A stretch of 12,074 nt of DNA from Anaeromyxobacter sp. GTDB taxonomy: Bacteria; Myxococcota; Myxococcia; Myxococcales; Anaeromyxobacteraceae. The translations under genes were made by a program, and so were the position numbers. This document shows positions 1-3,854 of this stretch, piece after piece. Location: assembly GCA_020028115.1 (NCBI GenBank), contig JAHWYA010000013.1:1-12074 (forward strand), given 5' to 3'. Under the pieces are notes generated by a model. The model worked only from the letters and a program-made list of their open reading frames with translations, was not told the DNA's origin and did not search any database. Numbering within the stretch: the first letter of the stretch is position 1; every line of letters begins with the position of its first letter.

Positions 1-884
<884 letters not shown>

Positions 885-905
885 CGAAGGAACACCAGGC
901 GAACG

Positions 906-947
906 GCGATGGCGGGGCCCCGTCGAATGACGGGCCCCCTCCATCGC
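906..947 (+). promoter_or_regulatory. Long GC-rich hairpin between tuf and rpsJ
   Basis: The arms 906-924 and 929-947 are inverted repeats of 19 nt with two mismatches and a GAAT loop. The outer 7 bp (GCGATGG with CCATCGC) and inner 6 bp are perfect. No T-run follows, so it is not a canonical intrinsic terminator. It occupies nearly half of the spacer separating the str end from the S10 genes. Plausible roles are partial termination or attenuation, an RNA processing or stability element, or a leader bound by L4 as in the E. coli S10 operon; none is shown by the sequence. The inverted repeat itself is clear and its function is inference. Confidence 0.55.
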
Positions 948-978
948 GCAGCGCCGGGCCAGCAGAAAAGGCTTCTCA

Positions 979-1284
<306 letters not shown>

Positions 1285-1295
1285 TCGAGGCGACC

Positions 1296-1916
1296 ATGGC
1301 CAAGTTCGACGTCTACGATCTCGAAAAGAAGAAGGTGGGCGAGCTCGATCTCGCCGACGCCGTCTTCGCCGGCGAGGTGAACGAGCACCTCTTCTACGAG
1401 GTGGTGAAGGCGAAGCTCGCCTCCGACCGCTCCGGCACCCACGCGGTGAAGAACCGCTCCCTCGTCTCCGGTGGCGGCAAGAAGCCGTGGAAGCAGAAGC
1501 ACACCGGCCGCGCCCGCCAGGGCTCGACGCGCGCCTCCCAGTGGGTCGGCGGCGGCAAGGCGATGGGGCCGAAGCCCCGCGACTACTCCTACGACGTGCC
1601 GAAGAAGGTGCGGAAGGCGGCGCTCCGCGCGGCCCTCTCGCTCCGGACCCGGGACCAGAAGCTCGTCATCGTCCAGGAGTGGAAGCCGGCGGCGCCGAAG
1701 ACCGACACGGCCGCCAAGGTGCTCGCGAAGCTCGGCGCGAAGAAGGCGCTCGTCGTCGACGGTCAGGCGAACGTCGCGCTCGCGAAGAGCGTCCGCAACC
1801 TCTCCGGCTCGGACTTCCTGCCGGTCGAGGGGCTCAACGTCTACGACATCCTGCGCCACGACGTCCTCGTCCTCACGGCCGAGACCGCCAAGGCGCTGGA
1901 GGCCAGCCTGTCATGA
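1296..1916 (+). CDS. rplD: 50S ribosomal protein L4
   Basis: L4 binds 23S rRNA early in 50S assembly. A long loop reaches into the peptide exit tunnel, and in enterobacteria L4 is the autogenous repressor of the S10 operon. The 206-residue protein has family length. The tunnel loop region is visible at about residues 53-95, rich in Gly, Lys and Arg, with [15 protein letters not shown] and then WVGGG. The C-terminal half has the globular [25 protein letters not shown] ending. GAGG lies just before the ATG at 1296. The stop TGA overlaps the rplW start by 4 nt, which implies translational coupling. It stands where rplC would normally be, directly behind rpsJ. Codon use is the C-ending type of this operon (CTC 18 to CTG 4 by my count), unlike tuf. 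Confidence 0.98.
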
Positions 1917-2209
1917 CGACCCTCCTCATCCAGGACGTGGTGAAGCGTCCGCTCATCACCGAGAAGAACGAGCGCGCGCGCGAGCTCGCGAGGCACTACG
2001 CCTTCGAGGTCCACCGCGACGCCACCAAGATCCAGGTGAAGCAGGCGGTGGAGAAGCTCTTCAACGTGCACGTCGAGGACGTGCGCACCGCCATCGCGCG
2101 CGGGAAGAACAAGCGCGTCGGCCGCAGCGTCGGCCAGCGCCCCAACTGGAAGAAGGCCTTCGTGACCTTGAAGGAGGGCGAGACGATCGCCCTCTTCGAG
2201 GGGACGTAG
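1913..2209 (+). CDS. rplW: 50S ribosomal protein L23
   Basis: L23 lies at the exit of the peptide tunnel and is the docking site for trigger factor, SRP and the Sec translocon. The 98-residue product has normal length. Near the N-terminus it has [13 protein letters not shown]; Glu17 matches the position of the trigger factor contact residue of E. coli L23. The hairpin loop (about residues 60-80) is basic, with [10 protein letters not shown] and then QRPNWKKA. The ATG overlaps the rplD stop as ATGA (1913-1916), and GGAGG at 1898-1902 inside the end of rplD serves as ribosome binding site, so rplD and rplW are probably translated in a coupled way. It ends in TAG, 16 nt before rplB. Confidence 0.98.
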
Positions 2210-2225
2210 GCGGACGGGAGAAGAC

Positions 2226-3074
2226 ATGGCCCTCAAGGAATACAGGCCCACGAGCCCGGCCCGCCGGCACATGACGGTCTCGGACTTCGCCGACGTCACC
2301 AAGGCGAAGCCCGAGAAGAAGCTGACGCGGCCGATGAAGAAGTCCGGCGGCCGCAACAGCCACGGCCACATCACGACCCGGCACGTCGGCGGCGGCCACA
2401 AGCGCCGCTACCGCGTGATCGACTGGCGGCGTGACAAGGACGGCGTCCCCGCGAAGGTCGCGGCGATCGAGTACGACCCGAACCGCACGGCGCGCATCGC
2501 GCTTCTGCACTACGCCGACGGCGAGAAGCGGTACATCCTCGCCCCGGTCGGCGTGAACGTCGGCGACGTGCTCCTCTCCGGCGAGACGGTCGACATCCGG
2601 CCCGGCAACACCCTGCCGATCCGCTCGATCCCCCTCGGCACCGTGCTCCACAACGTGGAGGCGCAGCCCGGCTCCGGCGCGAAGATGATTCGCTCCGCCG
2701 GCTCCTTCGGCCAGCTCATGGCGAAGGAGATCGGGTACGCCCAGATCCGCATGCCCTCCGGCGAGGTCCGCAAGGTCCTCGAGGACTGCAGGGCGACCAT
2801 CGGGCAGCTCGGCAACGTCGAGAGCTCGTCCGTCCGCATCGGCAAGGCCGGCAAGAGCCGGTGGCGCGGCATCCGGCCGACGGTCCGCGGCCTCGCCATG
2901 AACCCGGTCGATCACCCGCACGGCGGCGGCGAGGGCAAGTCGGGGCAGGGCAACCCGCACCCGGTGAGCCCGTGGGGCCAGAAGACGAAGGGCCTCAAGA
3001 CCCGCAACAACCGGCGCACCGACAAGTTCATCGTCTCGCGGCGCCGGCCCGGCGTGCGCAACACCCCGCACTAG
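2226..3074 (+). CDS. rplB: 50S ribosomal protein L2
   Basis: L2 is a core 50S protein needed for subunit association and for the peptidyl transferase region. The 282-residue product is close to the family's roughly 275. The N-terminal OB-like part carries [17 protein letters not shown] (about 55-71). The C-terminal SH3-like part carries [14 protein letters not shown] (226-239), including the conserved histidine cluster associated with peptidyl transferase activity, followed by a basic tail ending [21 protein letters not shown] sequence precedes the ATG at 2226. It ends in TAG, with rpsS starting 18 nt later. Nothing is unusual in the sequence. Confidence 0.98.
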
Positions 3075-3092
3075 CGTCGGAGAGAGCGACCC

Positions 3093-3398
3093 ATGGCGCG
3101 TTCGATCAAGAAGGGCCCGTTCGCGGACAAGCACCTCACCAAGAAGGTCGAGGACGCGAACAAGGGCAGCAAGAAGTCGGTCATCAAGACCTGGTCGCGG
3201 CGGAGCACGATCCTCCCGGACTTCGTCGGCCACACGTTCGCGGTGCACAACGGGCGGAAGTTCGTCCCGGTGTTCGTCACCGAGAACATGGTCGGCCACA
3301 AGCTCGGCGAGTTCGCGCCCACGCGGACCTTCCACGGCCACTCGGCCGAGAAGAAGGTCGCGTCCGCCGCGTCGCCCGCCCCGGCGGCGAAGAAGTAG
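3093..3398 (+). CDS. rpsS: 30S ribosomal protein S19, with a short basic C-terminal tail
   Basis: S19 is a 30S head protein that pairs with S13 near the A-site tRNA and bridge B1a. The product has 101 residues. The core shows [12 protein letters not shown] at the start, [20 protein letters not shown] in the middle, and the signature [19 protein letters not shown], ending near residue 88. Residues 89-101 ([12 protein letters not shown] type) form an Ala/Pro/Lys tail beyond the usual roughly 92-residue length. The ATG at 3093 follows GGAGAGAG. It ends in TAG, 12 nt before rplV, whose product begins with a similar Ala/Lys/Pro-rich segment. The core identity is certain; a function for the tail is not known to me. 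Confidence 0.97.
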
Positions 3399-3410
3399 CG
3401 AGGGAGAACC

Positions 3411-3854
3411 ATGGCGGACACGAAGAAGACCACGAAGAAGCCGGCCGCGAAGGCCGACGCCCCCGCGGCGGAGCCGAAGAAGGCCCCCGCCCGGAAGGCC
3501 AAGCCGGCGGCGCCGGCGGCCGGGCCGCACGCCTCCCTGCGCTTCCTCCGGATCGCGCCGCGAAAGGTGCGGCTCGTCGCGAACGAGGTGCGCGGGCAGA
3601 AGGTCGGCGACGCGCTCGCGATGCTCAAGTTCACGCCGCAGGCCGCCGCGCAGCCGCTCGCGAAGCTGCTCCGCTCGGCCGTCGCGAACGCCGAGCAGAA
3701 GGGCGGCCGGGTCGACGTCGACGCGCTGTTCGTCAAGACGCTGACCGTCGACGGCGGCCCGAAGATGCGCCGGTTCATGGCGCGCGCGATGGGTCGCGCG
3801 TACCGCGTCGAGAAGAAGACGAGCCACGTCTACGTCGAGCTCGGGACCGCGTAG
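3411..3854 (+). CDS. rplV: 50S ribosomal protein L22 with N-terminal Ala/Lys/Pro extension
   Basis: L22 binds all domains of 23S rRNA, and its long beta-hairpin lines the exit tunnel. The product has 147 residues against about 110 for the family. The extra length is an N-terminal segment, residues 1-40, made almost only of Ala, Lys, Pro and Thr (for example PKKAPARKAKPAAPAAG). The conserved fold begins at about residue 42 with LRFLRIAPRKVRLVANEVRG. The tunnel hairpin is at about 108-135 (KTLTVDGGPKMRRFMARAMG), followed by TSHVYVELG. I chose the ATG at 3411 because GAGGGAGAA lies just upstream and no in-frame Met occurs between it and the core, so the extension appears to be translated. It ends in TAG, and rpsC begins 25 nt later. 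Confidence 0.96.
   Translation: MADTKKTTKKPAAKADAPAAEPKKAPARKAKPAAPAAGPHASLRFLRIAPRKVRLVANEVRGQKVGDALAMLKFTPQAAAQPLAKLLRSAVANAEQKGGRVDVDALFVKTLTVDGGPKMRRFMARAMGRAYRVEKKTSHVYVELGTA

Follow-up and report, generated by a model that had tools for sequence, protein, structure and literature searches.

Departure of rplC from the S10 operon of Myxococcota and a 23S rRNA-like leader RNA that may mediate L3 self-repression

The window analysed here (the whole stretch of 12,074 nucleotides from an Anaeromyxobacter sp.) opens with the end of a tuf gene followed by an S10 operon, the first features of which are listed in Table 1. The translation of the tuf part was found to be 77–80% identical to that of the gene upstream of rpsJ in loci L137–L140. 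The order rplD-rplW-rplB-rpsS-rplV-rpsC-rplP of the canonical operon is retained in the window, and the same succession, headed by rpsJ, is shared by Myxococcota and canonical bacteria. However, the canonical operon has rplC between rpsJ and rplD, in the position occupied here by a short spacer, whereas the Myxococcota operon is without rplC in every genome read at this junction. An earlier interpretation made from the letters of the window (the sequence-only reading) had claimed both this absence and a ribosome-binding GAGG before rplD; the absence was confirmed, and a Shine-Dalgarno-like GAGG is present.

Table 1. Position and identification of features at the start of the window.
Feature	Position	Strand	Identification
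tuf (EF-Tu), 3' part	3..884	+	ORF; EF-Tu named from sequence; 5' part cut off by the contig start
rpsJ (S10)	979..1284	+	ATG at 979, stop TAG at 1282–1284; Pfam PF00338 Ribosomal_S10, 132.8 bits over 979–1281
rpsJ-rplD spacer	1285..1295	+	11 nt, TCGAGGCGACC; Shine-Dalgarno-like GAGG at 1287–1290; read directly
rplD (L4)	1296..1916	+	ATG at 1296; Pfam PF00573 Ribosomal_L4, 226.5 bits over 1296–1913
rplW (L23)	1913..2209	+	Start overlaps the rplD stop; named from position and translation matches in other S10 clusters
rplB (L2)	2226..3074	+	ORF and comparison; the canonical S10 order goes on from here

The spacer between tuf and rpsJ (885–978) contains an inverted repeat near 914–950 which is poorly kept in relatives, while an alignment of 14 sequences shows conservation of the blocks GGCG.ACGGC and CGCGC.GCGCC that flank it. 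The spacer is possibly a leader of the S10 operon. Rfam (E up to 1) gave no match before rpsJ in the window or in two further loci (L293 and L294).

The absence of rplC from this position was found to extend throughout the phylum. A Pfam search of 60 relatives detected L3 in 52 and S10 in 57. In a phylum set of 157 genomes with a completeness of at least 90, the relocated gene scored over the curated TIGR03625 cut-off used to call bacterial L3 in 151, and rpsJ was present in 154. The set was assigned to Myxococcota through named relatives, the S10 of G178 (the genome of L199, Archangium sp.) matching in place that of G083, a genome of the window's order. The solved relatives of the product of one such rplC (locus L051) are ribosomal L3 proteins. 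Among the matches listed, rplC was never adjacent to rpsJ, the closest pair being divergent and 4.9 kb apart (G165). Distances on the same replicon include 42 kb (G005), 59 kb (G050), 81 kb (G010) and more than 1 Mb (G075 and G028); rplC mostly occurs as a single gene away from the operon, and in many closed genomes it lies within 40–210 kb of rpsJ. With ten L4 queries, 55 of 56 rplC loci were found to be without rplD, the exception (L120) having it 5.2 kb off.

The rpsJ-rplD junction was read in 63 genomes of the phylum including that of the window, and rplD follows rpsJ without L3 in all of them (63/63). These genomes comprise 41 loci, one per genome (window included), and 27 clusters (L293–L317, L331 and L332), of which 22 add further genomes and five repeat genomes of the 41-locus set; loci L221, L223 and L224 are identical with G083, G163 and G162, respectively, having equal coordinates. 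The readings cover 26 of the 29 families, f18, f21 and f27 being those not among them. With the stop codon included, the gap values range from 2 to 142 nt, and that of the window (14) recurs in L025–L027, L030–L032, L034, L036, L037 and L048. Relocation of rplC is a trait of the phylum and is not special to the window genome. Relatives carry the gene elsewhere, and rplC is uncoupled from the S10 operon; the loss of any L4-type autoregulation, which the sequence-only reading had expected of a real break, would be a possible consequence, and the relocated gene shows a leader of its own.

The genome of the window (G000) is a MAG assembly of 2.97 Mb in 597 contigs. A search of this whole genome for L3, which had been proposed by the sequence-only reading, was run, and a profile that was positive in 14 of 14 control genomes gave no match anywhere in G000; the assembly is, however, only 66.62% complete. 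When the region around rplC of G005 was used as query against G000, the left flank of the relatives' rplC site was found on contig C310 and the right flank (typA) on contig C454. Neither contig extends to rplC, and the final 0.8 kb of C310 is unlike the relatives. The kinase-regulator-rplC stretch of G005 was not found in this 66.62% complete assembly, and the sigma factor matches in it (74–76%) sit on other contigs. The rplC of G000 most likely falls in a stretch missing from the assembly, between C310 and C454 and at or close to the relatives' site; a rearrangement at that site is possible. On C454 (L339), the interval from typA to the end of the contig, in which relatives carry rplC near typA, holds glycosyltransferase-like genes (469–3763), as read from the sequence.

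The break had been called rare, and among the bacteria sampled it is indeed uncommon. Named genome contigs were scanned with an L3 alignment (the first sequence of which is myxococcal), and in the best 80 of 588 confirmed loci, a non-random sample, rplD adjoins rplC in 71. In one more of these 80, from Brachyspira (L147), the contig ends too early, with rpsJ upstream of rplC. The eight of the best 80 without adjoining rplD are seven loci titled Myxococcales (2), Deltaproteobacteria (2), Proteobacteria, Archangium and Labilithrix, and one Omnitrophota MAG (L162). In the S10 tree, L149 (genome G174), which is among the seven, is placed outside Myxococcota. A second phylum set was drawn around G174, with S10 found in 57 of 59 genomes; 53 of the 57 are canonical (G186 being counted by an L3 adjoining a cut S10), and in the other four (G174, G185, G225 and G208) L3 is absent at the junction and rpsJ stands directly before rplD. 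In G185 and G225, rplC is divergent beside an FtsJ-like methyltransferase gene, a neighbour shared with some Myxococcota families. A second S10-like match, 40% identical, was also seen in these two genomes (G185:C294:4230-4484 and G225:C360:9628-9858).

In the Omnitrophota MAG, rplC (2691–3329) lies among genes named from sequence as acetate kinase, EF-P, topA and mnmE, and an S10 search of that genome found none. This is apparently an independent exit of rplC from the S10 operon. Given the exits in genomes of the G174-phylum set and in L162, rplC has therefore departed from the operon on more than one occasion; among the groups examined, fixation of the exit across a phylum was observed only in Myxococcota. 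The exit of a single gene from a ribosomal cluster, with the rest staying, is a known kind of event according to the available text of PMC8046335. That work concerns Gammaproteobacteria and Bacilli, and its main text, as far as available, is without rplC, whereas the Myxococcota event lies at the base of a phylum. No report of the Myxococcota relocation of rplC or of an L3 leader was found in the open-access literature.

In a tree built from eight proteins of the S10 cluster (S10, L4, L23, L2, S19, L22, S3 and L16), 29 Myxococcota genomes form one clade with a support of 1.0, next to a neighbour phylum (Desulfobacterota-like, with Syntrophus). The L3 proteins of 31 Myxococcota also form one clade (support 0.949), and most sub-groups are common to the two trees. 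The L3/L4 divergence ratio was 0.99 in Myxococcota, compared with 0.94 in the canonical neighbour set and 0.64 in a mixed set drawn from other bacteria. Compared with the neighbour set, L3 shows no acceleration following its relocation, though the ratio is above that of the mixed set. The simplest reading is one move before the ancestor of the phylum followed by vertical inheritance.

Two other accounts of the vacant junction were weighed against this. The sequence-only reading had left a choice between a gene lying elsewhere and an assembly deletion, and of these the former holds for the relatives, which carry L3 elsewhere, but the latter does not, as the junction recurs in 63 genomes. A collapsed deletion of about 620 bp that took rplC out of the MAG would be in keeping with a fragmented, incomplete assembly in which no L3 was found. 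However, close relatives, including the single-contig genomes G002, G005, G007 and G008, have an identical or nearly identical junction, and it recurs across the phylum in genomes which have L3 at another site. The same reading had also suggested comparing the junction in related genomes, and had named as damaging an assembly without L3 anywhere combined with relatives that all have rplC here; the first half of this pattern was found, but not the second, as no rplC is present at the junction in any of the 62 relatives read. Because closed relatives share the junction and have L3 elsewhere, an assembly deletion was ruled out, and we give it practically no credence. The other account is that a copy acquired from another lineage took the place of L3 at the stem of the phylum, the native operon copy being lost. 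It would suit a gene that lies apart from its old neighbours, and also a phylum that stands beside its neighbour phylum in the S10-cluster tree but is separated from it when the L3 tree is rooted at the midpoint. The nodes behind that deviating placement are weak, however (0.874, branch length 0.00), and against replacement stand the single L3 clade, its sub-groups being mostly those of the S10 cluster, and a divergence ratio close to that of the canonical neighbours. Horizontal replacement is not favoured by the trees and is considered unlikely.

A conserved new partner operon for rplC was considered and rejected, as the neighbours vary by lineage. In the family of the window (f1) these are a sigma factor, a histidine kinase, a response regulator and typA, and in other families an FtsJ-like methyltransferase or enolase. 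In family f18 (L111 6305–7621, and L112) enolase ends ~16 nt before rplC, an arrangement which suggests that eno and rplC may be co-transcribed there. In the window's family, promoter-like CTTGAC and TA.A elements upstream of rplC are kept in 10 of 10 aligned loci, as is a leader, and on the strength of this 10-locus alignment rplC probably has its own promoter; a consensus promoter scan of L051 under a strict rule found none.

Genes for two proteins without a Pfam match and for TPR proteins occur downstream of rplC, directly or after other genes, in most loci of f2–f6, f8–f11, f17 and f18 and in one of f7. The downstream genes of G050 encode 273, 441 and 512 aa, followed by a long TPR protein that is truncated where the locus ends. 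The available text of PMC2875238 gives 294, 442, 512 and 1202 aa for nfsA-D of Myxococcus xanthus, and nfs genes are described as relatives of gliding genes in the part of PMC3169522 available. The G050 genes fit nfsA-D in size and order. The sizes of the genes after rplC in a Myxococcus-like locus (L061 8704–16002) likewise fit the sporulation locus nfsA-D, which would place a growth gene beside a sporulation operon.

A hairpin was found upstream of the rplC Shine-Dalgarno sequence, ending 13–36 nt before the chosen rplC start. It consists of a stem 1 of 4–6 bp (typically 5, closed by C-G), an internal loop and a stem 2. The stem sequences change freely; the internal loop has C[U/G/A]C on its 5' side and mostly one pyrimidine on its 3' side. 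Relative to the chosen start codon, the element thus occupies the 5' region of its ribosomal protein gene. A descriptor of this design matched 27 of 90 upstream regions, a count which is not independent as the descriptor was written after viewing these first 90 regions; 50 dinucleotide shuffles gave a mean of 1.16/90 with a highest count of 5, and random windows gave 23/1800. As it had been written post hoc, the descriptor was therefore frozen and tried on 20 newly fetched loci, 13 of which were matched (12/19 without L375, which is from the same genome as L199, seen before); 15 of the 20 belong to family f4, and all 13 matches are within f4. By eye, L366 and L376 have near-variants of the leader.

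Covariance models were also applied. The first (R1), made from five seeds, found nine leader sites among 49 matches in 844 kb, and eight of its top 11 matches were rplC leaders; of the matched loci, L359 is closely related to a seed, and L068, L350, L352 and L353 belong to a family from which two seeds were taken. Applied to 46 loci lacking rplC, R1 gave 24 matches, all of 15.9 bits or less. In the 20 newly fetched loci it found 10 leaders at E up to 0.018, with one off-target match at E 0.32. The best five matches of a larger model (R2) in 873 kb were at leaders, with eight leader matches among 25, L066, L069 and L199 not being independent of the models. Two matches of R2, neither of them a leader, were obtained in 70 canonical or outgroup loci (563 kb), and no leader was matched by it in three loci of the G174-phylum set (L288–L290). 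Both models also give chance matches of 15–21 bits elsewhere in the loci.

Covariation was measured in an alignment (A4) of 24 rows which was fitted to the structure, takes in 23 of the 27 loci given and includes one off-target (chance) row. Within it 98.6% of cells are paired and eight of nine pairs are changed on both sides. The covariation score was 0.707, compared with 0.196 for shuffled alignments and at most 0.149 for slid controls. Two of five measures were not beyond shuffles, namely the count of doubly changed pairs (reached by 29 of 500 shuffles) and the pair types, which were no higher than in shuffles (313 of 500 reach the observed value). RNAalifold gave the same nine pairs as A4, and it is in A4 that the structure is supported by covariation. 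A hand alignment of 30 leaders has 147 of 150 stem cells paired, but its rows were picked for having stems and it is illustrative only; a MAFFT alignment of 17 leaders (A2) was misaligned on the 3' side and was excluded from the counts. Rfam gave no match over a leader at E up to 1 in five sources, at the gathering score in 16 sources, or at E up to 1 in 12 sources (six of them shared with the gathering-score set). An L20_leader match in L360 (E 0.085) was discarded, as it lies some 700 nt downstream of the leader. That the leader is a real structured, covarying RNA is well supported.

The structured leader is present in several families, with look-alike variants in others, and is not universal. 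The variant of the window's family f1 has the form GUCC-U-CCNNG / CNNGG-C-GGAC, with 96.8% of cells paired and two of nine pairs doubly changed. Families f19–f23 (CUCUG ... GAAU) and f24–f29 (C[A/U]AC ...), grouped by eye, have what appear to be further variants. Of the newly fetched loci outside f4, the one from f23 has the f19–f23 variant by eye, and the four from f11 have no leader by eye. Inspection of the upstream regions of several further families also showed no leader, and in six f4 loci of six genera (L061 and L132–L136) only a short GCGC hairpin was seen before the start.

A resemblance to 23S rRNA was found when R2 was run against 9.8 kb comprising the whole 23S of G050 with its flanks and part of that of G005. 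The best match (20.6 bits, E 0.0054) was to a helix of domain VI in G050, GGCAC-CGC-UGG...CCA-U-GUGCC, and the same helix of G005 was the third match (14.5 bits). By alignment, the helix corresponds to 2678–2733 of E. coli 23S in the record used, directly after the sarcin-ricin loop, and we take its base to be that of H96/H97. The 23S was found in seven of 12 more genomes, six of which were read at the helix, giving eight myxococcal 23S in total; RNAfold drew the helix shape in four of the eight and the others were read by alignment. The 5' loop is CGC in four, CUC in three and CAC in one. The C-G closing pair is present in seven of eight, and the 3' loop base is U in six and A in two. In the 30-leader hand alignment the loops are CUC, CGC and CAC, plus CAA and CUA in f24–f29, with mostly C or U on the 3' side, so the triplets CUC, CGC and CAC are common to leaders and 23S. 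The likeness of leader and rRNA site, seen in the best R2 match and in these shared triplets, is partial: CUC is found in both leader and 23S of G160 and of G111, the latter with C vs A as the 3' loop base, and G035 combines a CUC leader with a CGC 23S, with no base-by-base match within G111 or G035. R2 run on E. coli 23S gave no match at this helix, the sequence of which there (CGCAU-CAC-UGGU...GCUA-A-AUGCG) has the same 5-bp and 3x1 shape as the leader.

The hairpins may be read otherwise. They could be chance stems with a coincidental likeness to 23S, as the sequences are GC-rich, the motif is short, and both models score chance matches elsewhere in the same loci. Against this stand the recovery of leaders in the newly fetched loci by the frozen descriptor (13/20) and by R1 (10/20), the rate of 1.3% at which shuffles match, and covariation with low slid controls, which together make a chance origin very improbable. 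A structure that is real but not an L3 operator deserves more attention: it could bind another protein (e.g., L6) or an RNA chaperone, or act in mRNA stability or transcription. In the available text of PMC9687910, uL6 natively binds H97; moreover, some lineages do without the leader. However, the hairpin immediately precedes rplC and is like a helix of domain VI. For yeast, L3 is described as the major binder of domain VI (PMC4671574, as far as its text was available), and in PMC9687910 uL3 is tied to the stable domains 0 and VI except H96, with its 128–153 loop touching several of those helices. L3 is likely to be the ligand, and a leader serving some other function is regarded as a minor possibility.

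The reading preferred here, with a probability of roughly three in four, is that the exit of rplC from the S10 operon predates the last common ancestor of the Myxococcota examined, and that a structured leader mimicking 23S likely mediates self-repression by L3. After its exit, the relocated gene would have been passed on outside the operon, mostly as a single gene. In its architecture, and to some extent in its sequence, the leader corresponds to the base of the domain VI helix, and free L3 in excess over rRNA would bind this copy of its putative rRNA site. Bound L3 would then block access of the ribosome to the rplC start codon, and such private negative feedback at the level of translation would replace co-expression with S10-L4-L23-L2. 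It also seems fairly probable that, L3 having lost shared control, the Myxococcota made an L3 r-leader by copying the H96/H97 base of 23S, with a loop from the same set of triplets.

Leaders of ribosomal protein genes that copy rRNA are already known, and those for L20, eL15, S15 and S4 described in the available text of PMC7247131 share with the rplC leader a 5' structure, covarying stems and likeness to rRNA. Table 1 of that work, through its S15 rows, has no L3 ligand, which is the putative ligand here. The putative L3 leader was found neither in Rfam 15 by the searches above nor in those rows, and is thus new as far as these sources go, although of a known kind. The control of the E. coli S10 operon by L4, as described in the accessible part of PMC10931766, is likewise feedback of a ribosomal protein on its own mRNA, as proposed for L3; it differs in the protein and in that the target in Myxococcota lies outside the S10 operon.

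In Myxococcota, a break in a highly conserved gene order is tied to what is probably the departed gene's own control element. L3 is an early assembly protein; if it binds the leader, the hairpin would be a minimal model of the L3 site on 23S rRNA. In that case the lineages with, without and with altered leaders would provide a natural experiment on the loss and regain of ribosomal-protein feedback.
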